Source: Candidatus Cloacimonadota bacterium
GTDB lineage: Bacteria; Cloacimonadota; Cloacimonadia; Cloacimonadales; TCS61
DNA: 40,618 nt
Direction: 5' to 3'
Assembly: GCA_030600585.1 (NCBI GenBank)
Contig: JAUVLU010000023.1
Coordinates: 1 to 40,618 of the forward strand
Positions 1-27,710 of the stretch are shown one piece after another (positions within the stretch are counted from its first letter, which is position 1; each line of letters opens with the position of its first letter). The position numbers and the translations under genes are program-made. The notes below the pieces were generated by a model. The model did not search any database and was not told the origin of the DNA. It saw only the letters and a list, made by a program, of their open reading frames with translations.

Positions 1-3000
1 TTGAGTTCACAGAGAAAAGCTCACAAAATGATACATTTACACAATTGCATATTAAAGACTGTTCTTCATCCGGAAAGGCTGGAGAACCGCAATTACCGGT
101 ATATACTAAGTTCATTATTCTCCCTGATCATGGAAATTATGTTTTAGAAAATATTTCATACGATGAAAAGATCATCGAACTGGATAAGGCGGTTTTACCT
201 ACCGGTTTTTTTGATGACTGCGAAGTAAATACTGCTGAATATAATAAAGATGAATGGCTCCCTTCGGAGATCGTTACAATAAGTGATCCAAACATCATGG
301 GTGCGTACCGGTTCTCACAGATTGCTGTATCACCTACACAATATAACCCAATCCAAAACAAAATTAGAATTTTAGAAAACATTGAAATCAATATAATGCT
401 GGATGAAGCTGATACAAAAAATCCGAAACTAAAACAAAACAAGATCAATTCATTTTCCGATATAGCCAAATCATTAATTCAAGGAAATGTAATTAATCAA
501 ACCATGCAGAATGGACAATATCTCTTTATTATTCAAGATGATATAGCCTCTCTTTTAGATCCGCTATTACGTTGGAAAGAAAAACTGGGTTACAAAACCA
601 GAGTTGCAACTTTATCCGAAACCGGTTATACTGCGGATTCTATTAAAAACTATATCCAAAATGCTTATGATAATTGGGAAATTCCTCCTGAATTTGTTAT
701 TCTAATTGGTGATGTTTCAGGTGCTATTCAGTGTCCCGCTTTTTTTGTAGAAGGCTATTGGGAACCATATGCTGTAAGTGATCACAATTATACTCTTCTC
801 GATGGAGATGATTATTTCCCTGATGTTTTTATCGGCAGACTTTCAGTCCAAAGTCAGATGGAATTAATGACTATTATATCTAAAATTATTAATTATGAGC
901 GAAATCCTTTTATGGATATCCCATGGCAGAAACGTGCTTTAATGGTTGGACATATTGAAGAATGGAATGGTTACTCTCAGCGTGAAATTTTGATGGGAAT
1001 CCGAAACAAACTACTTGATTTTGAATATACCACTGTCGATACATTTATAAGTCCCTGGCAGCAGGGAAATATCCAGCTTGCAAACAAAATAAGTGAAGGG
1101 GAATCATTTATATGTTTTCGCGGGGCTGGATCTCCTTCCTATTGGAGTGGTGGTTATGCAGGTCCCATGTTTACGATTGATGATATTAGTACTTTGAATA
1201 ATGGTTTTATGCTGCCGATGGTTACAAGTATGACTTGCGCCGGTGGTGATTTTGCGTCCGAACAATATACAACATGTTTCGGTGAAAAATGGTTAGCAGC
1301 AGGAAGCCCTTCGGTTCCACAGGGAGCAATTGGATTCATCGGTCCAAGCGAACATGATACAAAAGCCTGGTTCAATAATGCAAATGCGATGGGAATTTAT
1401 CAGGGTGTTACTCAGGAAGGATTATTTCGCTGTGGAGAAATGCTGCTTCGCGGAAAGATGGAATTGTACAACAACTACCCGCATAATCATGCTTGGGGAA
1501 GCGCATTAGACTCAGATCAATTCTACTTTTATGTTTATAATCTTCTTGGAGATCCCGGATTGCAAATATTAACTGATATTCCGCAAGAGATCGAACTCAT
1601 CTTTGATCCGGTTATTCAATCTTCAGTCAATTTTATTGAAGTGCACATCGATATTTTAGGGGATGATCTTTCCGGATTTACGATTGCTATCACATCTGAA
1701 GACAGCCTTATAACAACCGGAACTACAGATGCCGGCGGAACTGCAATTATTCCCATTGATCTACCTACCGGCAGCTATGAAGTTACTGCTTCCAAATACT
1801 GTTATATTCCAATTACGCATGATCTTGTTGTGGAAGCTGACGCATCTCTTGTATTAGAAAATTTTTCTTTTTCAGATCAACTTGTTTCAGGTTATAATTC
1901 TAATTTGGAATTCACTATTGCCAATGCCGGAATTACCGATATTGAAAATATAACAATAATTCCACTGTGTGATAATGATCACATCACTTTCCCGAATAAT
2001 TCGCTTGATTTGGATATTCTGGAAGCTGGACAGAATTATTCGGGTGAATTTGAAATACAAGTTTCCCAAAGTTGGGTAGATGGAGAGGAGGCACTAATAT
2101 TTCTGGAAATAACTTCTGACGGCGGAGATTTTATTTTCTTAACTCCGTCGGTAATTGTTTCACCTGAACTTATGGTTTCTGAATTTATAGTGCAGAATTC
2201 AACCCAATGCCTTATCCAAAATCAAACGACAAATATTTTAATCGAGCTGCAAAATTGCGGCAATTTTGGTACCGGTAATTTCCAAGCTGAACTGATCTGT
2301 ACGAATGAGAATGCCATAATCGAGGATGCCTTCAGCAGCTTTGTTAATATTCCCCAAAATGGAACAGGAACCGGTATTTTCTTTGTTACACCAGAAAATG
2401 TGAACTCAGGTGAAATTGCTCAATTTGAATTAATTATCACAAACGATTATTCTATTCTACAAAATATCAGCTTCAACTTTCCTATCGGTATTATTGATTC
2501 AACCAGTATTACCTTCTCAGAAAACGGTTATTATGCAATTGAATCAGGAGATATTGGAAATTTCAGTGCTCCACAGTATAACTGGATCGAGATAGATCCT
2601 GCTTATGGAGGTGACGGATCACTTCTCGATTCCGATCATACAACTATCGATGGATTTACAAAAGTTATTCCCCTTCCATTCCAATTTAATTATTATGGTA
2701 ATTTCTATGATAATATCTCTATTTGCTCCGAAGGCTACATCTCTATGGAAACAATGCCGCTTGTATTTCATAGAAATCGTAATATCCCATCGGGAGTTGG
2801 TCCAGCAGGAATGATAGCACCCTTCTGGGATGATCTTATCGATGGCAGAATATATGTTAAATACGATGTAGAAAACCATTATTTTATTATTGAATGGTCG
2901 GATTTTAAAAATGAATTTGATGGAACCAGCGAGATATTCCAGGTTATACTCTACGATCCCGAATTTTATTTCTCAACCAACGAAAATAAATTGATAAAAT

Positions 3001-4787
3001 TCCAATATAAAGAAATAAGTAATACAGACCATGATGAGAATTATGCAACTGTTGGATTAGAAAATTATCAGCAGGATAGTGGTTTATTATTAACTTTCTC
3101 CAATATTTATCCAAACACCGTACATGAATTGCAAAATGAGACCGCAATACTTTTTTGCCATAATATTGAGATCGGCATCCCGTTCATAAGTGCTGAACCC
3201 GAGAGCTTCTTTTTTTCAGTTACTGCCGATTCCATCTTCACGGTTGATTTTACATTATTAAATGTTTTGGGTTCTTCCGATATTTCATATAATGTTTCAT
3301 TAGCACACTTTGCAAAAATACCTGATGGGTATCCAACTAATTTCAATGAAGATTTCTCCAGAAATATCGAAAGTAGTCTAATTTTTAATATGACGAATAC
3401 ATACATACCAATAATTCCGATGAACTTCCTTTTTTATTTGATCCATAATGACATCGATGGTGAAGGTGTTTATGGCATTACAATTGACTTCCCACCCGGA
3501 TTTTATGTGAATAGCGCTACGAATATTGATGAACTGGAATATAATAATGAAACTGGTGACGGAGCAGAAATAAGCTGGGGTTTTGTACCGGGAAATAGCA
3601 TTATTCCTCCTCCTTCTTCTTCAATCCCGATAAATGTAAATGTGACAATCGATGAAAACCAAACATCTCCGGTTGAGATTGGCTGGTATATCGAAGGAGA
3701 CGGAACGGGAAGTGCGCCGCATCAGGTAAGCGGTACATTCACGGTTAATCCGACCGGTGACAATTATCTCTGGATAACTTACCCAAACGGCGGAGAAACA
3801 ATTGTTCCCTCGATACAAGATACACTTTTGTGGGATAAATACGGTGATGCGGAATATGTGCAGATAGAACTAAGCAAAGATAATATGGCAAGCTGGCAGA
3901 TAATTGATGATCAGGCAGAAAATTCAGGGTTGTATCCATATATATTTGATGGTCCGCTCGCCGATGAGTGCAGGATCAAAATATCAACCCTTGATGGAGA
4001 GAGCTATGATTATTCCGATGAATCTTTTAGCATTTCAGCCTTTAATATCATCTACCCGGAAGAGGGTTCAATACTCTCTTATGGAACAATTGATACATTA
4101 ATATGGCAATATACCGGAAATTACGATAATGTGCAGATCGAGATTTCTGTGAATAACGGATATTCATGGGAATCAATAAGTGAAATTGCTGAAAATACCG
4201 GTTCATTTGTTTATTCGGTTCAAGGACCTCCTTCCGAATTCTGTTTATTCCGAATTAGTAATACAGCCGGCACAGTACAAAATACATCAGGAACTTTCAC
4301 GATAGTAGATTCACCAGTTGATTGGCTGGAAATAGAAAATACGTCAGGGAATATTCCGGCAGGTGGGAACGATATTAATTCCTTTACAATCTCCTCCGAT
4401 GGATTGATTCTTGCAACTTACGTTGCAGTTATTAAGGTTATTACAAATATTGGACAAATTTTAAATATTCCAATCACGCTGGAAGTATATTCAACAACAC
4501 CTCCAATAGAGCATTATAAACTCAGTCAGAATTATCCAAATCCATTTAATCCGTTCACAAAGATCGACTATGAAATTCCTATAGCCGGTAAGATCACAAT
4601 AAAAGTGTATAATATCAGGGGACAATATGTTAAAATGCTTATTAATGAGCAAAAGGAACCGGGAAGTTATTATACCTATTGGGATGGAACCGATGACAAA
4701 AACCGCAAAGTAAGCTCAGGAGTTTATTTCTATCAACTCGAATCAAGCAAATCTACAAAAACAATGAAGATGATTCTTATCAAATAG
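1..4787 (+). CDS. Secreted gingipain-like (peptidase C25 family) protein with T9SS-type C-terminal sorting domain, 5' end outside window
   Basis: The reading frame is open to the first base, so the N-terminus (signal peptide) lies outside the window; a TTG at 45 is only an internal codon. Numbering below counts from that TTG. The first ~40 residues resemble a C25 propeptide (GEPQLPVYTKFIILP). Residues ~155-510 look like a C25 caspase-fold domain, with DGDDYFPDVFIGRLS and the Cys-containing stretch SMTCAGGDFAS (Cys398). Where many C25 enzymes have GHGS, this one has RGAGS (Ala361), so activity is uncertain. Ig-like and nidogen-like beta domains follow (~520-1030), then two Ig-like repeats (~1255-1440, YPNGGE and YPEEGS starts). 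The last ~90 residues are a FlgD-like/T9SS sorting domain (NYPNPFNPFTKIDYEIP). The family is exported across both membranes and anchored or released. No partner gene is visible. Confidence 0.85.
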   Translation, partial: EFTEKSSQNDTFTQLHIKDCSSSGKAGEPQLPVYTKFIILPDHGNYVLENISYDEKIIELDKAVLPTGFFDDCEVNTAEYNKDEWLPSEIVTISDPNIMGAYRFSQIAVSPTQYNPIQNKIRILENIEINIMLDEADTKNPKLKQNKINSFSDIAKSLIQGNVINQTMQNGQYLFIIQDDIASLLDPLLRWKEKLGYKTRVATLSETGYTADSIKNYIQNAYDNWEIPPEFVILIGDVSGAIQCPAFFVEGYWEPYAVSDHNYTLLDGDDYFPDVFIGRLSVQSQMELMTIISKIINYERNPFMDIPWQKRALMVGHIEEWNGYSQREILMGIRNKLLDFEYTTVDTFISPWQQGNIQLANKISEGESFICFRGAGSPSYWSGGYAGPMFTIDDISTLNNGFMLPMVTSMTCAGGDFASEQYTTCFGEKWLAAGSPSVPQGAIGFIGPSEHDTKAWFNNANAMGIYQGVTQEGLFRCGEMLLRGKMELYNNYPHNHAWGSALDSDQFYFYVYNLLGDPGLQILTDIPQEIELIFDPVIQSSVNFIEVHIDILGDDLSGFTIAITSEDSLITTGTTDAGGTAIIPIDLPTGSYEVTASKYCYIPITHDLVVEADASLVLENFSFSDQLVSGYNSNLEFTIANAGITDIENITIIPLCDNDHITFPNNSLDLDILEAGQNYSGEFEIQVSQSWVDGEEALIFLEITSDGGDFIFLTPSVIVSPELMVSEFIVQNSTQCLIQNQTTNILIELQNCGNFGTGNFQAELICTNENAIIEDAFSSFVNIPQNGTGTGIFFVTPENVNSGEIAQFELIITNDYSILQNISFNFPIGIIDSTSITFSENGYYAIESGDIGNFSAPQYNWIEIDPAYGGDGSLLDSDHTTIDGFTKVIPLPFQFNYYGNFYDNISICSEGYISMETMPLVFHRNRNIPSGVGPAGMIAPFWDDLIDGRIYVKYDVENHYFIIEWSDFKNEFDGTSEIFQVILYDPEFYFSTNENKLIKFQYKEISNTDHDENYATVGLENYQQDSGLLLTFSNIYPNTVHELQNETAILFCHNIEIGIPFISAEPESFFFSVTADSIFTVDFTLLNVLGSSDISYNVSLAHFAKIPDGYPTNFNEDFSRNIESSLIFNMTNTYIPIIPMNFLFYLIHNDIDGEGVYGITIDFPPGFYVNSATNIDELEYNNETGDGAEISWGFVPGNSIIPPPSSSIPINVNVTIDENQTSPVEIGWYIEGDGTGSAPHQVSGTFTVNPTGDNYLWITYPNGGETIVPSIQDTLLWDKYGDAEYVQIELSKDNMASWQIIDDQAENSGLYPYIFDGPLADECRIKISTLDGESYDYSDESFSISAFNIIYPEEGSILSYGTIDTLIWQYTGNYDNVQIEISVNNGYSWESISEIAENTGSFVYSVQGPPSEFCLFRISNTAGTVQNTSGTFTIVDSPVDWLEIENTSGNIPAGGNDINSFTISSDGLILATYVAVIKVITNIGQILNIPITLEVYSTTPPIEHYKLSQNYPNPFNPFTKIDYEIPIAGKITIKVYNIRGQYVKMLINEQKEPGSYYTYWDGTDDKNRKVSSGVYFYQLESSKSTKTMKMILIK

Positions 4788-19662: not shown

Positions 19663-20568
19663 TTATTCTTCTTTGTTTTTATAAAATCTTGTGGTTGGAT
19701 ATGCCAGCTCAATATTCTTATTCTTGGCAAATTCCGATAAGATATCTTCCCAGATAGCTTCGGTGTAACCCCGTCGGTTTCTGGTTTCGCATAAATGGCG
19801 AATTGTAAGTTTTACTCCATGATCAACAACGCTCGTATAAACTATCGGTGTTAATTCCTTATAATATATCATATATTTTTTTGCAGCTCTCTTAATCTGA
19901 TTCTCCATTCTTTTAGAGATATTCTCACCTTTATTGTTGGCAATTTCCAGCAGGATCTTTTTAGCTTTTTGCCAATCACTTTCAAAGGTAACAACAACTT
20001 CTATTTCATTCCAGAGATATTTGAAACCTTTATCATAATTTGCCAGATCTTGTGTAAATATTTTACCATTCGGAATATGAACTATTCTGCCTGTACTCTG
20101 ATCTGCATGAACCCAGTTCCCGATCTCCAGAAGTGTGAATTCAAAGAAGCTTTGATCTATAACATCACCGGCAAATTCACCGATCTGAACCCTGTCACCC
20201 ACATTAAAAGGACGCCTCGAAATAATATAAAACCAACCGGCAAAATTCGCCAAAACATCTTTTAGAGCAATAGCAACACCGGCAGAAAGCAATCCTAAAT
20301 AAGTAATCAGAGATTGTGCACCTCTAAACCATATCCGACCCACAAGAATAATAACAATGAAAAAAGTAACGGAATTTATCAATTTACGCCAATGATATTG
20401 GGTTTTAACATCGGAAATATTCTTATTGATAAGTTTAACTATCAATATCTTGATCAACCAGATAATAATGATCAATGCGATCGATTCAATGAATTTAATC
20501 ATAAATGGTGAATTGATGTAGGGAATGCTTTGAAAAATGCTTTTTATATATTCCAGTAATTCTGTCAT
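19663..20568 (-). CDS. MscS-family mechanosensitive channel
   Basis: This 301-residue membrane protein forms a tension-gated pore. Two N-terminal hydrophobic segments (~22-50 and ~65-85) precede the MscS pore helix and beta domain (YLGLLSAGVAIALKDVLANFAGWFYIISRRPFNVGDRVQIG, positions ~90-130). It is the last gene of the motor operon; its ATG shares a base with the MotB-like stop codon (TAATG), with AGGAG upstream, so translation is probably coupled. Whether it works with the motor or is only a passenger is not known. Confidence 0.93.
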   Translation of the reverse strand: MTELLEYIKSIFQSIPYINSPFMIKFIESIALIIIIWLIKILIVKLINKNISDVKTQYHWRKLINSVTFFIVIILVGRIWFRGAQSLITYLGLLSAGVAIALKDVLANFAGWFYIISRRPFNVGDRVQIGEFAGDVIDQSFFEFTLLEIGNWVHADQSTGRIVHIPNGKIFTQDLANYDKGFKYLWNEIEVVVTFESDWQKAKKILLEIANNKGENISKRMENQIKRAAKKYMIYYKELTPIVYTSVVDHGVKLTIRHLCETRNRRGYTEAIWEDILSEFAKNKNIELAYPTTRFYKNKEE

Positions 20569-21227
20569 TAATCACTCCTGAAATTCTTGATCAATCGGAT
20601 TTCTACTCTCCTGTTCTTCTTTCTGTTAATAGTAGAATCGTTAGGAACAAGTGGTTTAAATTCGCCATATCCCATTGCCTGCATCTGCTCCGGCGGGAAA
20701 AAGTTATTATCCATAAAGAATTTCACTACATTCAAAGCTCTTGCTGATGAAAGTTCCCAATTGGAAACGAAACTACCACTGAATATGGGAACATTATCGG
20801 TGTGGCCTTCTACCCGAACCTGCCATCCTGGCTCACCCTTTATCCTATTCTGAATATTTCTGGCAACTTGAGCAAGTGTACGCAAAGATTCCCATTTCAA
20901 AAGAGCTTCTCCCGTATTAAATAATACTTCTCCCGGAATTGTAATAACTTGTTCATTTACATCTAAAAGAGAATCTAATTTAGCGAGTTCCATCAAACGT
21001 TCATTTTGCTCTACTATCTGTTTATTCTGTTCAACAATTTTTCTATTTTTTTTATAGTCCATTGTTACATAAAAGAATACAAAAAAGACCAGAAGCAGTG
21101 CCATCAGATCTGCAAACGGGACCATCACATCCAACAAGTTCTGATTCTCACTTAACTCGTCGCTTATATCCTGAAACGTACTTTGCATTGAATATTTTTT
21201 ATCAATAAGTATATCTTCTGTCATCAA
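20568..21227 (-). CDS. MotB-like stator subunit with OmpA peptidoglycan-binding domain
   Basis: This 219-residue protein has one N-terminal membrane helix with PFADLMALLLVFFVFFY; Asp40 sits where MotB has its ion-binding aspartate (YADFMT-type motif). A short coiled region with a repeated KIVEQN unit follows, then an OmpA-like domain (VEGHTDNVPI, SSARALNVVKFFM, NRRVEIRL) that binds the cell wall. It overlaps the MotA-like gene by four bases (ATGA). Compared with ExbD/TolR, the OmpA domain and F-A-D motif favour MotB. Confidence 0.92.
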   Translation of the reverse strand: MMTEDILIDKKYSMQSTFQDISDELSENQNLLDVMVPFADLMALLLVFFVFFYVTMDYKKNRKIVEQNKQIVEQNERLMELAKLDSLLDVNEQVITIPGEVLFNTGEALLKWESLRTLAQVARNIQNRIKGEPGWQVRVEGHTDNVPIFSGSFVSNWELSSARALNVVKFFMDNNFFPPEQMQAMGYGEFKPLVPNDSTINRKKNRRVEIRLIKNFRSD

Positions 21228-21961
21228 TGTAAATATCCTAATAATTTTTCTTTGATCTTATGAGAGTTTTCTTCTTTCTTAATTGAAATTATCCCTGCGA
21301 TGATTATATCTCTTATTCTTGTGTCAGTATTATTTTTGTCTCTTATTTTCCCGGATAAAGGTTTGAAAACCAAGGCTGCAAGAATAAGCCCGTAAAGTGT
21401 AGTAACGAGAGCCAATCCCATTGCAGCAGGAATGGCAGCAGGATCTTTCACACGGTGCAGCATGGCAATTAATCCAATCACTGTTCCCATCATACCGAAC
21501 ATTGGAGCAAAGCTGCCAGCTATTCTAAAAACTCTCTCTGCTACAATATTTTTTTCTGTCATGGATCTGCTGTCACGAGACAAGACTTCATCAATATGTG
21601 TAATATCCTCTCCATCCGCTACAAGATTCAAACCTTTAGCTAAAAATGGGATTTCTTTTATGGATTCATTTTCGATCAGGTTTTTAAAACTTGTTTTTCG
21701 AGATTGCTTACTGATATCTAATATAGTATCAACAAGTTTAATTTCCGAATATTGCTTATCTTTGAATATCGCAATAATAGATTTCCCGGCATTCATTAAT
21801 GCTTGCGGAGAAAAATAAATTACAACAGCTGATAATGTACCTCCGAATGTAATTGCCAATGCCGGCCAATTGAGATACAATGATGGATCTTGCTTAAAAA
21901 ATATCACAGATAAAATTATACCAAATCCAAATATAAATCCAATTATTACTGATAGTCTCAT
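21224..21961 (-). CDS. MotA-like stator subunit (MotA/TolQ/ExbB family)
   Basis: This 245-residue protein has four membrane helices (~4-22, 31-50, 147-168, 178-202) in the MotA arrangement, with a large cytoplasmic loop between helices 2 and 3. Conserved MotA signatures are FAPMFGMMGTVIGL (Pro153, equivalent to E. coli Pro173) and MGLALVTTLYGLILAALVFKPL (Pro201, equivalent to Pro222). The loop carries FLAKGLNLVADGEDI, as in MotA proteins. AAGGA within the preceding gene's last codons serves as ribosome site. It should form the ion-driven stator with the MotB-like partner. Confidence 0.92.
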   Translation of the reverse strand: MRLSVIIGFIFGFGIILSVIFFKQDPSLYLNWPALAITFGGTLSAVVIYFSPQALMNAGKSIIAIFKDKQYSEIKLVDTILDISKQSRKTSFKNLIENESIKEIPFLAKGLNLVADGEDITHIDEVLSRDSRSMTEKNIVAERVFRIAGSFAPMFGMMGTVIGLIAMLHRVKDPAAIPAAMGLALVTTLYGLILAALVFKPLSGKIRDKNNTDTRIRDIIIAGIISIKKEENSHKIKEKLLGYLH

Positions 21962-21963
21962 AA

Positions 21964-23370
21964 TTAATCCTTTATAAATTGCAGAATATTTCTAATATTA
22001 AGAAGCATTTGATGCTGGATCATTTCCTGCTCTTTTTGTTCGATCTGTTCCATGTAATCCATATCTTCGCGTATAATGGAAGCTGCTCTCGGAGTTAAGT
22101 TTGCAATAAATTTATTTTGCATATTTCTATCAATACTCTTAAGGAACTTCACCATCAAATCATGATCAGTAGAGAGAACGATCTGCTCGATCTCATGCTC
22201 GTTTAATTTTGTTATATCAGAAAAAAGGAATACTTTCTGTCTCATTTCTTTCCCTGTCTCCGCATCTATTTGATTTATTTGATCCAGGTATTTCTTGGTT
22301 TTATCCAGATCAAGTTGATTTAATACTTTAATAAGTACTTCCCTGCTGTTAATATTTAATTTCTCATCTTCTATCATTTTATTGAATTTTGTTTGTAAAT
22401 TATTTCTTAGTACGATAATTTCTTTCTTCGATTTACCATTATCTGTTAACATCGTTTTCATTATCTCATCTGTTTCTCCTATATAACAATTCAAGAATTC
22501 ACTTACAAACTTTGAATTAAGATTAGTTAATATAAAAGCAATATCACCGACTTTTTCGTTTTCAACAAGTTTGATAAAACTTTGTATCGAGAGCTCTTCT
22601 AAAAAACTGAAATCAAATGGGTCGATTTCTTTTTTATTATCGATAAGTTGAATAACTAAAGGTTTTTTCTTTGTGGAAACAATGCCGGCTGTTGTACTTG
22701 TTCCTCCAATTCCCTGAGCTGACATATTCCCTTTTATCTGTAATGCTTTCTCAAATCCGGTTACATTTATACTTTGCATAGAAGTTGTTAATTTTGTAAA
22801 TCCTGATCTTAAGATGAAAACAGAAACAAGAATTATTATAAGTAAAGCTATTCCCAAGTAGAGAAATAAAAAATTATTCACCTCTTTTTCTTCTACTTCC
22901 TTAACTATATTATTTGTGAAATCCATAATATTTCTTATCTGTAGCACATCACCTTTTTCAGGATTAATATTCATCCAAAGAGCAACATTCTGCTTAATGA
23001 ATAGCAGGATTTCATCTGTTACATCTTTTTGCAAATAGATCGTAATCTCTTTTTTGGCAACAATTGTTGGATATGTTTCCTGATCATCGATCATAGTAGG
23101 CATAACAGATCTTGATTTTGCAATTGGAAGTCCGGGTAAACTCTTTTCTTTATCAAGCATTGACCCATAAACCTGCAGTCTGCTGGCAGGATAATCCAGA
23201 GTAAGATTAGCAATAACTATGGTTTCTCCTACAATTGGGAAAAGCATTGCTTCTATCCATTCGGCTAGTTCACGCTCTGCCTGAATTTCTTTTACTGTTT
23301 CAATATCAAAGTCTTGTGAAAAGAGCTGTAAAGTGAGAAACAAAATTAAAATTATCAACAGTTTCTTCAT
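21964..23370 (-). CDS. FliF-FliG fusion: membrane-ring/rotor protein
   Basis: This 468-residue protein joins two flagellar motor parts. Residues 1-19 are a signal peptide or first membrane anchor. Residues ~32-155 match the periplasmic C-terminal domain of FliF (WIEAMLFPIVGETIVIANLTLDY; IKQNVALWMNINPEKGDVLQI, like FliF's A-x-G-x-x-x-x-RGD region). A membrane helix spans ~166-188. Residues ~258-345 resemble the FliG middle domain (VLIKVLNQLDLDKTKKYL; the EHPQ motif is not kept). Residues ~375-465 are the FliG C-terminal domain (KVFLFSDITKL, NKFIANLTPRAASIIREDM). Lys411, Arg428, Glu435 and Asp436 fall at the exact spacing of E. coli FliG Lys264, Arg281, Asp288 and Asp289; Arg297 is replaced by Glu444. 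FliF RBM1-2 and the FliG N-domain are absent. Confidence 0.88.
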   Translation of the reverse strand: MKKLLIILILFLTLQLFSQDFDIETVKEIQAERELAEWIEAMLFPIVGETIVIANLTLDYPASRLQVYGSMLDKEKSLPGLPIAKSRSVMPTMIDDQETYPTIVAKKEITIYLQKDVTDEILLFIKQNVALWMNINPEKGDVLQIRNIMDFTNNIVKEVEEKEVNNFLFLYLGIALLIIILVSVFILRSGFTKLTTSMQSINVTGFEKALQIKGNMSAQGIGGTSTTAGIVSTKKKPLVIQLIDNKKEIDPFDFSFLEELSIQSFIKLVENEKVGDIAFILTNLNSKFVSEFLNCYIGETDEIMKTMLTDNGKSKKEIIVLRNNLQTKFNKMIEDEKLNINSREVLIKVLNQLDLDKTKKYLDQINQIDAETGKEMRQKVFLFSDITKLNEHEIEQIVLSTDHDLMVKFLKSIDRNMQNKFIANLTPRAASIIREDMDYMEQIEQKEQEMIQHQMLLNIRNILQFIKD

Positions 23371-23383
23371 AAAATATCCTTAT

Positions 23384-24832
23384 TTATTCATTTAATAGTA
23401 ATTGCATCATTTTCTTTATTTCAACATTATCAGGATCCCTTCTCTCGGCATGTTTTAATTGATACATCGCTTCTTCAATATCTCCCAATCGATAATATAT
23501 CGATGCTAACCTTATATATGATAGCGAGAGATCGGGAGCAAGGGAAATAGCTCTGTTACATTCGTCTATTGCTTTGTAATAATCTTCCGAATAATAGAAT
23601 TCCAGTGCAGAGTTCAAATGTACGGTAGCCTGATTGATCTTTTGAATATCAGATTTTCTTATCTTGGAAGCTTCTTCCTGTACTTTTTGCTCAACTTCTC
23701 TTTCATCCATCACACGTTCGATTATCCTTATAGTATCATGAATTGTTCTGGTTTGAACTATAGTATCAATTATTACTTTTTCTATATAGACGGTATCAAC
23801 TCTCACATCAAGATCCAAACCGAATTGAGATGGAAATAATGACGCCAGGTTTTCTTCTGTATCACGGGTTTTGCCAAAATCTATTTTTATACCGAAGAAA
23901 TGTTCACCATAATCAGATTCCAAGCCATTTCCGGTAGGAATAGTTCCACTTTCGTTCGCCCCAGCCAATGGATATTGGAAAGCATAATCCATACTTATCT
24001 GAATAAAGCTGAAATCCAGTTCCTCATTCTTTTTCCCGCTGGTCGGTTCAATCCATTTTTTGGAATAGAAATTCACACCAAAACCGCCGGTAAGATCATG
24101 GTTATTTACTCCCAATCTAATCTGAAGATTTTTTGCCAATAAATATTCCGCACCAAGACCAAAACCCAGTTCGTTATCATTCTGATATTTTCTGTACAAA
24201 ATATCTCCTGAAAAATTGAACCTTTTCCAGGTTACTTTAGAACCAAAACCCAATCGCATTGGAAGTTTATCTTTATTGTTACTATCTATTGCCATATTTG
24301 TTTGCAAGATGTTCCCAGCCAAAAGCCCAAAATTAGCATATTTATTTAATCTGTAAGAAAATCCCAGATCCAGATCAAAGGCATTTTTACTCTCATTGAT
24401 TTCCGAGAAACTTGTGTAATGATCAAATAAACTCAATCCTGCAGAAAATTTACCAAGTAATTTTTCAGGAAAGATACATGCGCCATAATGCAAACCAAAT
24501 CTGCCCTCTGTATAAGCATTGGAATTGAATGAACCACCGGTTAAAGCAAATGCTCCCGGAACTTGTGATATTGGGAATGACAAATAGACAAAGTTTTGTG
24601 CTATCTCATCATTATCCATTTGTATCATGTAGGGACGTGAATCTGTGATAAGCTGAAAATATCTGAAGCCAGCTAAACCGGATGGATTCCATACTGCTGT
24701 AGAAATATCTCCGGAAGATGCAATACCTGTTTCTCCCAAAGCTGCATTTCGTACTCCACCATTTTCAAAATCATATCCAAAACAAAAAATTGGGAATATT
24801 ATTAGACTAATTATAATATATTTAATTTTCAT
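23384..24832 (-). CDS. PorV/UPF0164-like outer-membrane barrel with periplasmic TPR tail
   Basis: I start at the ATG at 24832 (signal peptide MKIKYIIISLIIFPIFCFG, AAGGT upstream) rather than the TTG at 24847. The ~300-residue N-terminal part opens with RNAALGETGIASSGDISTAV-WNPSGLAG, the PorV/OmpP1-like signature (NP-x-GL), and shows alternating beta strands of an outer-membrane barrel. A linker (VDTVYIEKVIIDTIVQTRTI) and a charged helix lead to about 2.5 TPR repeats in the last ~90 residues. The TPR part should hang in the periplasm. The gene begins 4 bases after the adhesin stop and ends 13 before the FliF-FliG fusion. Confidence 0.8.
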   Translation of the reverse strand: MKIKYIIISLIIFPIFCFGYDFENGGVRNAALGETGIASSGDISTAVWNPSGLAGFRYFQLITDSRPYMIQMDNDEIAQNFVYLSFPISQVPGAFALTGGSFNSNAYTEGRFGLHYGACIFPEKLLGKFSAGLSLFDHYTSFSEINESKNAFDLDLGFSYRLNKYANFGLLAGNILQTNMAIDSNNKDKLPMRLGFGSKVTWKRFNFSGDILYRKYQNDNELGFGLGAEYLLAKNLQIRLGVNNHDLTGGFGVNFYSKKWIEPTSGKKNEELDFSFIQISMDYAFQYPLAGANESGTIPTGNGLESDYGEHFFGIKIDFGKTRDTEENLASLFPSQFGLDLDVRVDTVYIEKVIIDTIVQTRTIHDTIRIIERVMDEREVEQKVQEEASKIRKSDIQKINQATVHLNSALEFYYSEDYYKAIDECNRAISLAPDLSLSYIRLASIYYRLGDIEEAMYQLKHAERRDPDNVEIKKMMQLLLNE

Positions 24833-24836
24833 TACA

Positions 24837-27710
24837 TTACCTTGCAATTATTATGCTTCCTTGAAAAATTCTATTATTTATATTTATCCGGTAGATATAA
24901 AATCCACCACTTACTAAATTTTGTTCAGTATCTTTTTTATACCATCTGGCTTGTTTGTTATCTCCATATCCACTTATAATTAATTTTTTAATTAATTTCC
25001 CGCTTCTGTTGAATATATTACCTGATATCTTTTCCAGATCAACCTGGCTGTAGATAGTAATGTTACAATATTCATCATCCCACGTAACTGTGTGTGGTTC
25101 AATAAGAACCTTTTCATCCGGAATTTCAGGAGTAACAGTAACAACAAGTTCAGTTGAACTCGATGAACGTAATACATTGTCTTCCAAAATAACTGTTAAT
25201 ACTTCTGATCCGGTCCAATTTTCTAATGCTGAGAAGGTTACAACAAGATCTGAAATGCTTACAAAAATATCATCATTATTAATAATAGTCAGGGTTAATT
25301 CTTCCGGCAATTGTTCAGGATCAATAATCATTGGTCCAAAATCGATAACTTCCTCAGTATTCTCGGTAAATGTAATATTTTCTGGGAACAGGTCAGGATC
25401 AAAAGAAGGTGCATCATTCACACTGGTTACAATAATATTTGTGTTGTCGCTTGCCAAAGGTTCACCTTCTTCATCACGAATAATAAAACTCACATTTTCG
25501 ATTCCGAACCAATTTGGATCAGGTTCTATTGTTACCATATAACCATTTATAGTTATTGTTAAATTATTGCTGACTGTAGCTTCCAGAATCGGAACATCAT
25601 TCTCAGGATCATAAATATATAAGCTGAAATTTTCAATGATCATGCCATCTTCCATACATGTCATGCTATCCGGCAGAGTTATTGACGGTGGTTGATTATC
25701 TTCACAAACAAAAGAAAAAGATGCGTCTATAAGTACATTTGGAATAATTGCCAGGTCAGCTGCCGAGATATTAACAGTGATAATTTCACTATAATTAAAC
25801 GGTAGTGGAGGTTGGTATGAAATAATATAACCCGAACTTCCCATCATTGAAATTGCTTCAAGTTCAAAATCCTCTATTGTAATATCATTGATATTTACCT
25901 CTATCGAAGTGGAATCAACATCACTCCCACTATCAAGTATATAACAGCTTATCGAAGTGAACACAGAGACATTTACTGCACCGTTAGCCGGATATGGCTG
26001 CCAGATAAAAGGCGGATAGATATCCTCAATAATACATTCAAATGAATAGTTGTAAGTTCCCATTTGATTTGCTGGTAAAGCCAGATCAGATGCATCAATA
26101 GAGACATAAACAGTATCACCGGAATTGAAATTCTCTACAGGATCAATAATTATCAAATAATCATTATTACCACCGCTGTAGAATAGATTTCCATTCCCAA
26201 TTGAATAAATAATATCCTGCACATCCACAACAACACTATTGATATCTACACCAAAACCATCATCATTAATATGAAATGAGATATTTGTGTTTAAGGCATT
26301 ATCCACAGATAAAGGCTGAGGGTCGAGATTTGTGACATAAGGTGTCTCCTCATCACTGACACATTGAAATGAATAGGAAAAACCGGAAAGTTGATTTGCA
26401 GGAGTTGAAAGATCATCTACGTCAATCTCTACTGTAACTATCTGAGAAAATTCAAAGTTCTCGGATGGATTAATATTGATTGAATAGTCAGATACATTTC
26501 CGCTAAAGGATAAATTCCCGTTTGCAACTGAATACTGCACTGCATCTATTTCAACAAGCAGAGTATTAATATCTACTCCCATATCATCATCATATACATG
26601 AAAACTGATATTAGTATCTATTGGAACATTCTGCTGTCCGGGGACAGGATCGTAATTTCCTATGTATGGAGGAGCAATATCGTATTCGCATTGGAAACTA
26701 TATATATATGTTACCATAACGTTAGCAGGTTGGGAAAGATCGGAAGCATCTATCTGAACGGTAATAACCTCTCCATAATCAAAATTACCGGGTAGATCTA
26801 TTGTAACTGAATACCCATACGGAATTACCTGATACGAGAATGATGTATTAAGATAAGTAAATTGAACTCCCTGAATATCCACAACAACAGAGTTAACATC
26901 GACACCCTCAATATTATCGTATATATTAAAACTTACGTTTGTGTCGATCTGTATTCCATTCGCACCAGGTTCGGGATTCCATTCACCGGTAAATGGAGGT
27001 TGGATATCATCTATTATCTCGAATGAATATTCAAAGGTAGCCATTACTATCCCATTCAAGTCGGAAGCATTAATTGCAATTGAGACAATCTCGGCAAGTG
27101 CAAAATTAACAGGAACATCAATAATAATATGATAAGCATTTGCATTTCCTGAGTATGAAAAACACCCATTATTGTGAGTATAGGTAACACCTTCAATTTC
27201 AACTACTACTGATGTTAAATTCACGCCGATCCCGCTATCGTAAATAATAAATTCAATATCAGTATCCTGAGGAACATTAACCGCACCTGCATCAGGATCT
27301 AAACTGCCGATATAAGGAGGCTGCATATCTTCAATAGTCTGAAACGAATATGAATATGTTGACATTACGTTGGCAGGATTTTCAAGATCAGCTGCATCTA
27401 CCTGAATATTTATAAGATCATCAAACGAGAAGTCCATAGGTGGATTAATTGTAATAATATAATCAAAAGGTGTCCCGCTATAAAAGAAGGAACTGCTGTC
27501 ATTATTATAGATTATTCCATTGATATTAACCTCTACAGTGTTTATATCTACACCATCAACATCATCATAGATATGAAAAGTCACATCAGTATCTACTGGA
27601 ATCCCCGTTGCTCCTGCCGTTGGATATAAAGGTGAACAGTAGGGAGGAACTGAATCTGCAAAAATAAAACAACTGAATATTAAAATGAAAATAACAAAGA
27701 TATATTTCAT
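24837..27710 (-). CDS. Large surface protein: six Ig-like repeats, cadherin-like domains, T9SS-type C-terminus
   Basis: This 957-residue protein has a signal peptide (MKYIFVIFILIFSCFIFAD). Six repeats of ~109 residues follow (~22-670), each starting PPY/PPF...DP.PG.. and containing DxxxGVDxNxxxVxI and Y-SFQC-like ends. Two cadherin-like domains come next (~675-870; TVSNNLTITINGYMVTIEP, SVNDAPSFDPDLFPENITFTEN). The C-terminal ~75 residues (ISGNIFNRSGKLIKKL..SGGFYIYRI..IFQGSIIIAR) form a FlgD-like/T9SS sorting domain. It heads the motor operon; GGAG precedes the ATG. It should be exported to the cell surface and is a natural candidate for the adhesin moved by, or anchoring, the motor; that link is inference from gene order. 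Confidence 0.85.
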   Translation of the reverse strand: MKYIFVIFILIFSCFIFADSVPPYCSPLYPTAGATGIPVDTDVTFHIYDDVDGVDINTVEVNINGIIYNNDSSSFFYSGTPFDYIITINPPMDFSFDDLINIQVDAADLENPANVMSTYSYSFQTIEDMQPPYIGSLDPDAGAVNVPQDTDIEFIIYDSGIGVNLTSVVVEIEGVTYTHNNGCFSYSGNANAYHIIIDVPVNFALAEIVSIAINASDLNGIVMATFEYSFEIIDDIQPPFTGEWNPEPGANGIQIDTNVSFNIYDNIEGVDVNSVVVDIQGVQFTYLNTSFSYQVIPYGYSVTIDLPGNFDYGEVITVQIDASDLSQPANVMVTYIYSFQCEYDIAPPYIGNYDPVPGQQNVPIDTNISFHVYDDDMGVDINTLLVEIDAVQYSVANGNLSFSGNVSDYSININPSENFEFSQIVTVEIDVDDLSTPANQLSGFSYSFQCVSDEETPYVTNLDPQPLSVDNALNTNISFHINDDGFGVDINSVVVDVQDIIYSIGNGNLFYSGGNNDYLIIIDPVENFNSGDTVYVSIDASDLALPANQMGTYNYSFECIIEDIYPPFIWQPYPANGAVNVSVFTSISCYILDSGSDVDSTSIEVNINDITIEDFELEAISMMGSSGYIISYQPPLPFNYSEIITVNISAADLAIIPNVLIDASFSFVCEDNQPPSITLPDSMTCMEDGMIIENFSLYIYDPENDVPILEATVSNNLTITINGYMVTIEPDPNWFGIENVSFIIRDEEGEPLASDNTNIIVTSVNDAPSFDPDLFPENITFTENTEEVIDFGPMIIDPEQLPEELTLTIINNDDIFVSISDLVVTFSALENWTGSEVLTVILEDNVLRSSSSTELVVTVTPEIPDEKVLIEPHTVTWDDEYCNITIYSQVDLEKISGNIFNRSGKLIKKLIISGYGDNKQARWYKKDTEQNLVSGGFYIYRININNRIFQGSIIIAR
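25700..27647 (-). repeat. Coding region for six ~109-residue Ig-like repeats
   Basis: The repeat starts read PPYCSPLYP, PPYIGSLDP, PPFTGEWNP, PPYIGNYDP, TPYVTNLDP and PPFIWQPYP. The copies have clearly diverged at protein level, so this is an old expansion, not a recent tandem duplication. Confidence 0.8.

Follow-up and report, generated by a model that had tools for sequence, protein, structure and literature searches.

A FliF-FliG fusion encoded with MotA and MotB in a Cloacimonadota genome without a flagellum: a possible rotary motor for non-swimming use

What use may a bacterium without a flagellum make of flagellar motor parts? The question is raised by a gene in a 40,618-nucleotide stretch of DNA (positions 1 to 40,618 of contig JAUVLU010000023.1, assembly GCA_030600585.1; hereafter the window) from a Cloacimonadota metagenome-assembled genome that is 97% complete and lies near Ca. 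Tenebribacter. The gene (21964-23370, minus strand) encodes a 468-aa protein in which part of the MS-ring protein FliF is joined to part of FliG, and its neighbours encode the stator subunits MotA and MotB, an outer-membrane barrel and a large surface protein. Profile searches of the genome found no FlhA, FliF_C or FliM/FliN, and the system is therefore not a flagellum, nor does it have a flagellar-type switch, since FliM/FliN are lacking. Motor parts, a stator and a barrel with its surface protein in such a bacterium suggest a rotary motor for non-swimming use, possibly the movement of surface adhesins. We consider it probable that the genes encode a stand-alone, MotAB-driven FliF/FliG rotor of non-flagellar type, coupled to an outer-membrane adhesin machine.

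Domain architecture of the fusion protein

The open reading frame (ORF) begins with ATG on the minus strand; the earlier note on this DNA gave no strand, and a plus-strand reading of 21964-23370 is ruled out by stops throughout. The order of the parts is signal peptide, RBM3, transmembrane (TM) helix, linker, FliG middle domain (FliG_M) and FliG C-terminal domain (FliG_C), as profile, profile-profile and structure matches agree. By hydropathy, a signal peptide or first hydrophobic segment occupies residues 1-19 (23314-23370, minus strand like the other parts of the gene). It is followed by a periplasmic RBM3-like domain with a shortened collar insert bearing an SLPGLP motif (residues ~26-150; 22921-23295) and by a membrane helix (residues ~166-196; 22783-22875; hydropathy 162-196, helix 166-199 in the structure model), so that RBM3 precedes the second TM helix as in FliF. 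The FliG part consists of the middle domain (residues ~253-350; 22321-22614), recognised by profile, hhalign, alignment and structure, and the C-terminal torque domain (residues ~360-464; 21979-22293). In the alignment of the fusions, the FliM-binding EHPQ motif of the middle domain is eroded.

The FliG part was recovered by TIGR00207 (residues 253-461, E = 3e-20), by Pfam FliG_C (residues 364-461, E = 1e-14) and by a PDB sequence search, where Thermotoga maritima FliG (1lkv) matches with E = 2e-17; the whole-protein TIGR00207 equivalog score is below the curated cut-off (72.8 vs 226.7 bits). No FliF family model of Pfam or NCBIfam matches the protein, and the PDB sequence search also returned no FliF. 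When a profile of 20 homologous periplasmic domains was compared with a profile of 21 FliF proteins (hhalign), the periplasmic domain matched FliF RBM3 only (E. coli FliF 237-428; E = 2.8e-7, probability 93%), and the controls with reversed profiles and with FliG gave 0.2% probability. The corresponding comparison with FliG M and C gave E = 3.5e-31. Homology to FliG begins at FliG residue ~107, the N-terminal half matching FliF RBM3 instead, and the FliF-binding N-terminal domain of FliG is absent by hhalign. As the earlier note proposed, this domain may plausibly have been lost because the fusion makes binding to FliF needless. FliF RBM1-RBM2 (YscJ homology) are likewise absent, as the periplasmic part of ~145 residues leaves no room for them, and with no FlhA in the genome there is no sign of the type III export apparatus that accompanies FliF.

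An AlphaFold2 model (mean pLDDT 70, built on a 12-row alignment) shows an alpha-beta-[insert]-beta-alpha-beta arrangement in the periplasm and FliG helical arrays in the cytoplasm. In VIA-align comparisons it superimposes on FliF RBM3/collar chains (6scn, 6sd1 and 7cg7) with Z 12.5 and an rmsd of 2.4 Å over 100 residues, and on FliG chains with Z up to 15.8, the C-terminal domain matching 1qc7_B (Z 12.3) and the FliG solved with MotAB (8ucs_H, Z 11.9). The earlier note had described a FliF-like periplasmic domain and membrane helix running into FliG M and C, with RBM1-2 and the FliG N-domain missing, and the profile-profile comparison, the structure and the short periplasmic part bear out both descriptions. 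Moreover, the architecture is common to 22 proteins from Cloacimonadota, of which one is cut short where its contig stops, and therefore is not an assembly artefact. A PHROGs search gave nothing convincing (E = 0.065), and PADLOC gave no match to Zorya ZorA for either the fusion or its MotA.

For the natural joining of a shortened FliF to part of FliG there is a precedent in the Chlamydiaceae, which are also non-flagellated and where an RBM2-like periplasmic domain is fused to FliG_M only and FlhA is still in the genome (Bergeron 2016, PMC4768692). In contrast, the protein studied here combines RBM3 with FliG M and C, and MotA and MotB are encoded next door. Its signal peptide would export it so that the RBM3 domain is placed in the periplasm, where it may assemble a ring as in the S-ring, and the FliG M and C domains would hang below the inner membrane.

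The stator genes and the rotor-stator interface

MotA (21224-21961, minus strand; NF005383, 8e-47) is a MotP/PomA-like stator subunit, and MotB (20568-21227, minus strand), identified by profile searches and alignment, has the TM Asp (PFADLM) and an OmpA-type peptidoglycan-binding domain (GHTDNVPI..SNWELS). The neighbouring stator proposed in the earlier note is thereby recognised. MotA is found directly downstream of the fusion in all 22 Cloacimonadota loci (the window, a paralogue in L033, and L034-L053), and MotB follows it in all of them but one that ends in the contig. With few exceptions, the linked MotBs retain both the TM Asp and the peptidoglycan motif. Short linked MotBs lacking the GHTD peptidoglycan motif were observed in L050 (216-797), L051 (7080-7502) and L052 (1338-1877), the first also having Asn for the TM Asp; these are possibly degenerate or differently anchored.

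On the FliG side, K411, R428, E435, D436 and E444 of the fusion align with E. coli FliG K264, R281, D288, D289 and R297, and the residue spacing that the earlier note gave around Arg428 is exact. Its claim that the torque-generating charges are kept stands in part. In the homologue alignment, the segment R428...E435-D436 (22063-22089, minus strand) has R at the R281 position in all 22 Cloacimonadota fusions and an acidic residue at both the D288 (E/D) and D289 (D/E) positions in all 22, but the other two positions vary freely, with K at K264 in only 8/22 and at R297 a single K and never R. Of the 116 FliG-C columns examined, R281 and 238 alone are invariant, and no more than three (238, 288 and 289) are acidic throughout; the chance of finding both D288 and D289 among the latter is 4.5e-4, and that of R281 being one of the two invariant columns is 0.017. 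In a second phylum that has such fusions, the R281 position is G or A and D288/D289 is EE in nearly all of them, so the conservation of R281 does not extend to other phyla.

In E. coli, MotA R90 contacts FliG D288/D289 and MotA E98 contacts FliG R281 (PMC12505986). All 22 linked MotAs are basic at the R90 position (R in 15, K in 4, H in 3), that of the window included, and keep P173 (22/22) and P222 (all 21 readable). All 22 are non-acidic at the E98 position, compared with E/D in 27 of the 29 unlinked and flagellar MotAs of the same comparison, and most MotAs of the second phylum have lost E98 as well. Roughly half of the flagellar charge interface is thus retained. With R90 and D288/D289 retained, and E98 (and R281 in the second phylum) lost, the alignments point to R90 with D288/D289 as the contact that persists and to an eroded E98-R281 pair. 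The acidic pair may also have a structural role. A co-encoded MotA5MotB2 stator, anchored to peptidoglycan via MotB, would then turn the rotor, with torque presumably generated at the conserved MotA Arg90 and FliG Asp288/Asp289 contact.

The partial interface raises the alternative of an energised envelope system resembling TolQR/ExbBD, in which the stator would act on the FliG domains by pushing, for signalling or remodelling, and no ring would rotate continuously. The lost half of the charges and the absence of FliM/FliN agree with it, as does the spacer between the TM Asp and the peptidoglycan motif of MotB, which measures 103 residues (about 89-113 across the linked Cloacimonadota MotBs) whereas most of the flagellar relatives measured have 136-139 and E. 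coli has 164. It would also fit the neighbouring MscS-type channel gene (19663-20568, minus strand; profile match), which is part of the operon in this genus and one further genus and is probably accessory. However, the MotA belongs to the PomA/MotP type and has FliG-facing residues, the RBM3 fold builds rings, and FliG_C is kept with its stator-facing acids, and we therefore regard such a system as improbable.

PorV-type neighbours and the use of the motor

The strongest clue to function is the neighbourhood of PorV and type IX secretion system (T9SS) features, which had gone unreported in the earlier note. Next to the fusion lies a gene for a PorV/FadL-type outer-membrane barrel with a C-terminal DT-rich linker and TPR arm (23384-24847, minus strand; NF033709 PorV_fam, 7e-10), followed by one for a large secreted Ig-repeat (Big_5/Big_9) protein with a CHU_C-like C-terminus, a candidate adhesin (24837-27710, minus strand; Big_5 E = 2e-19). 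The barrel gene is directly upstream of the fusion in 16/22 Cloacimonadota loci, and in L047 and L049 the PorV and Ig-protein genes stay together in a different order. Conservation is higher in the TPR arm than in the barrel (0.65 vs 0.55). The barrel model is of modest confidence (mean pLDDT 64), and its best PDB match by Foldseek is chain F of the T9SS RemA C-terminal domain (CTD) complex (8gl6_F, E = 2.8e-10), and FadL follows. RemA functions as an adhesin in gliding. The CHU_C type IX sorting domain is above the cut-off in the Ig protein of L041, a close homologue of that of the window (E = 4e-6), and in the protein that precedes PorV in L058; the Ig protein of the window itself is below it. 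A further ORF of the window (45-4787, 1580 aa) has a CHU_C match at its C-terminus and is another likely type IX cargo.

A T9SS has been suggested earlier for Cloacimonadota (PMC11285876). Of the features tested, the SprA translocon and CTD cargo were found in the source genome, which has 96 CHU_C-type domain matches in 2.6 Mb, an unusually large predicted cargo set. It has only about 10 PorV-family genes in all, few enough to lend weight to the recurrent PorV neighbour of the fusion. GldM (TIGR03517) was detected in only 1 of the 289 genomes searched and not in the source genome; GldL was not searched for.

These findings could also mean that the fusion and MotAB stand in for GldLM and drive type IX secretion or the PorV shuttle rather than motility. 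The presence of SprA with GldM undetected, and PorV encoded together with sorting-domain cargo, would be accounted for. However, SprA is also found in about 40 genomes of family f10 and in many relatives within family f1 that have neither a FliG_C protein nor GldM. Type IX secretion therefore does not need the fusion motor, and for this reason a motility or adhesin-moving role is favoured over a secretion role. Moreover, with MotB anchored to peptidoglycan, the force would be exerted on a separate rotor, whereas GldM extends to the outer membrane itself. We regard the replacement of GldLM as rather unlikely. The same f10 genomes also weigh against a rotor coupled to the adhesin machine, whose link to the type IX pathway may be looser than it appears; so do L053 and the paralogue in L033, where no PorV is adjacent, and the loss of K264, R297 and MotA E98, owing to which the interface is not fully flagellar.

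In the adhesin-coupled rotor that we favour, the output would probably be passed through the periplasm to the PorV-type barrel with its periplasmic TPR arm, and the type IX-sorted Ig-repeat protein is expected to be held by that barrel. The conserved gene linkage suggests that a surface adhesin would thereby be moved, in gliding or in adhesion dynamics. With the flagellar rotor and stator, the system shares the RBM3 and FliG M and C folds, a MotP/PomA-type MotA, the TM Asp and peptidoglycan-binding domain of MotB, and, in Cloacimonadota, R281, D288, D289 and MotA R90. It differs in that FliF and FliG are fused with RBM1-2 and FliG_N absent, in lacking FliM/FliN, FlhA and a separate FliF, in the loss of K264, R297, EHPQ and MotA E98, and in the PorV and Ig-protein genes that stand in place of flagellar genes. 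SprA, a PorV-type barrel, a CHU_C-type surface protein and an ion-driven inner-membrane motor recall the GldLM/T9SS gliding of Bacteroidota, but GldM is undetected and the motor here is a flagellar-type MotAB with a FliG rotor. Ion-driven stators of 5:2 type are also used outside flagella in Myxococcus AglRQS and Zorya ZorAB, for which we know of no FliG/FliF-type rotor.

The open-access papers searched describe neither a FliG-like protein that accompanies MotA outside flagella nor a complete torque module and stator outside the flagellum linked to PorV and sorting-domain proteins. We tentatively raise the possibility of an undescribed class of motility or surface-dynamics machine, in which a flagellum-free MotAB/FliG motor drives a PorV barrel with a type IX-sorted adhesin, an independent solution to gliding present in at least two phyla. 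The operon is a concrete and testable case, as rotor, matching stator and candidate load stand together and diverge together across phyla.

Distribution and descent

The fusion, MotA and MotB are found together in all 21 related Cloacimonadota loci examined and, with divergence, in the second phylum. There, FliG_C domains occur in 12 of 16 genomes. Practically all of them lie in ORFs roughly 440-740 aa long, and apart from one split gene none is in a FliG of canonical size. At their N-termini the proteins align with FliF from RBM3 onwards (seven distant fusions, taken as a set, gave E = 1.6e-15). The operons are arranged as (sorting-domain protein)-PorV-fusion-MotA-MotB-MotB' or as PorV-fusion/TPR-1300-aa protein-MotA-MotB, and PorV adjoins the fusion in about 10/18 loci.

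The Cloacimonadota sequences form a clade in the trees of both the fusion and MotA (97 in each), with the proteins of G241 as their nearest relatives (95 and 98, respectively). This matching grouping is in keeping with a functional unit that has been inherited vertically or jointly. Both are quick trees with long branches, and deep placement is therefore tentative. Flagellated Cloacimonadota relatives have canonical FliF and FliG that group with flagellar proteins and not with the fusions, and both the fusion and its MotA form clades of their own, apart from this phylum's flagellar FliG and MotA.

Since family f1 has lost flagella, and flagellar remnants have been discussed before (PMC12199754), the operon could be taken for a functionless leftover of a former flagellum, now in decay. 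The separate clades speak against this, and so do the domain order, the MotB Asp, the peptidoglycan motif and the charged residues, all conserved over deep divergence. The operon also keeps its synteny across phyla and occurs twice in the source genome. This explanation is accordingly disfavoured and seems very improbable.

The FliG tree is unrooted, so the direction of the fusion, as a gain from the flagellum or an ancestral state, is not readable from it. The separation of a torque module (RBM3, FliG M and C, MotAB) from switch, export and filament helps to define a minimal motor and is relevant to the question of whether a motor of this kind could predate the flagellum. Among ~124 Cloacimonadota genomes, the fusion and flagellar FliG never occur together (zero vs about 1.9 expected), a deficit without statistical significance, and in G051 a flagellar-type MotA coexists with a linked one; hence mutual exclusion is not claimed.

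Several variants were observed beside the common arrangement. The duplicate in the source genome is a second, diverged fusion-MotA-MotB operon on another contig (L033, G000:C74, 7635-10633), followed by a gene for a 376-aa protein. In L191-L199, L069 and L055, from other phyla, two MotB-like genes come after MotA, and in one of them the TM Asp or the peptidoglycan motif may be missing. In another phylum, a ~1300-aa protein is encoded between the fusion and MotA in L182 (5499-9407), L184 (6047-9949), L188 (1213-5127) and L057 (2225-6073), and the fusions of these four loci are longer, with a C-terminal TPR-like stretch. Finally, in L199 (3282-4648) the fusion is split into an RBM3 ORF of 101 aa and a FliG ORF of 337 aa, by either a frameshift or a natural un-fusion.
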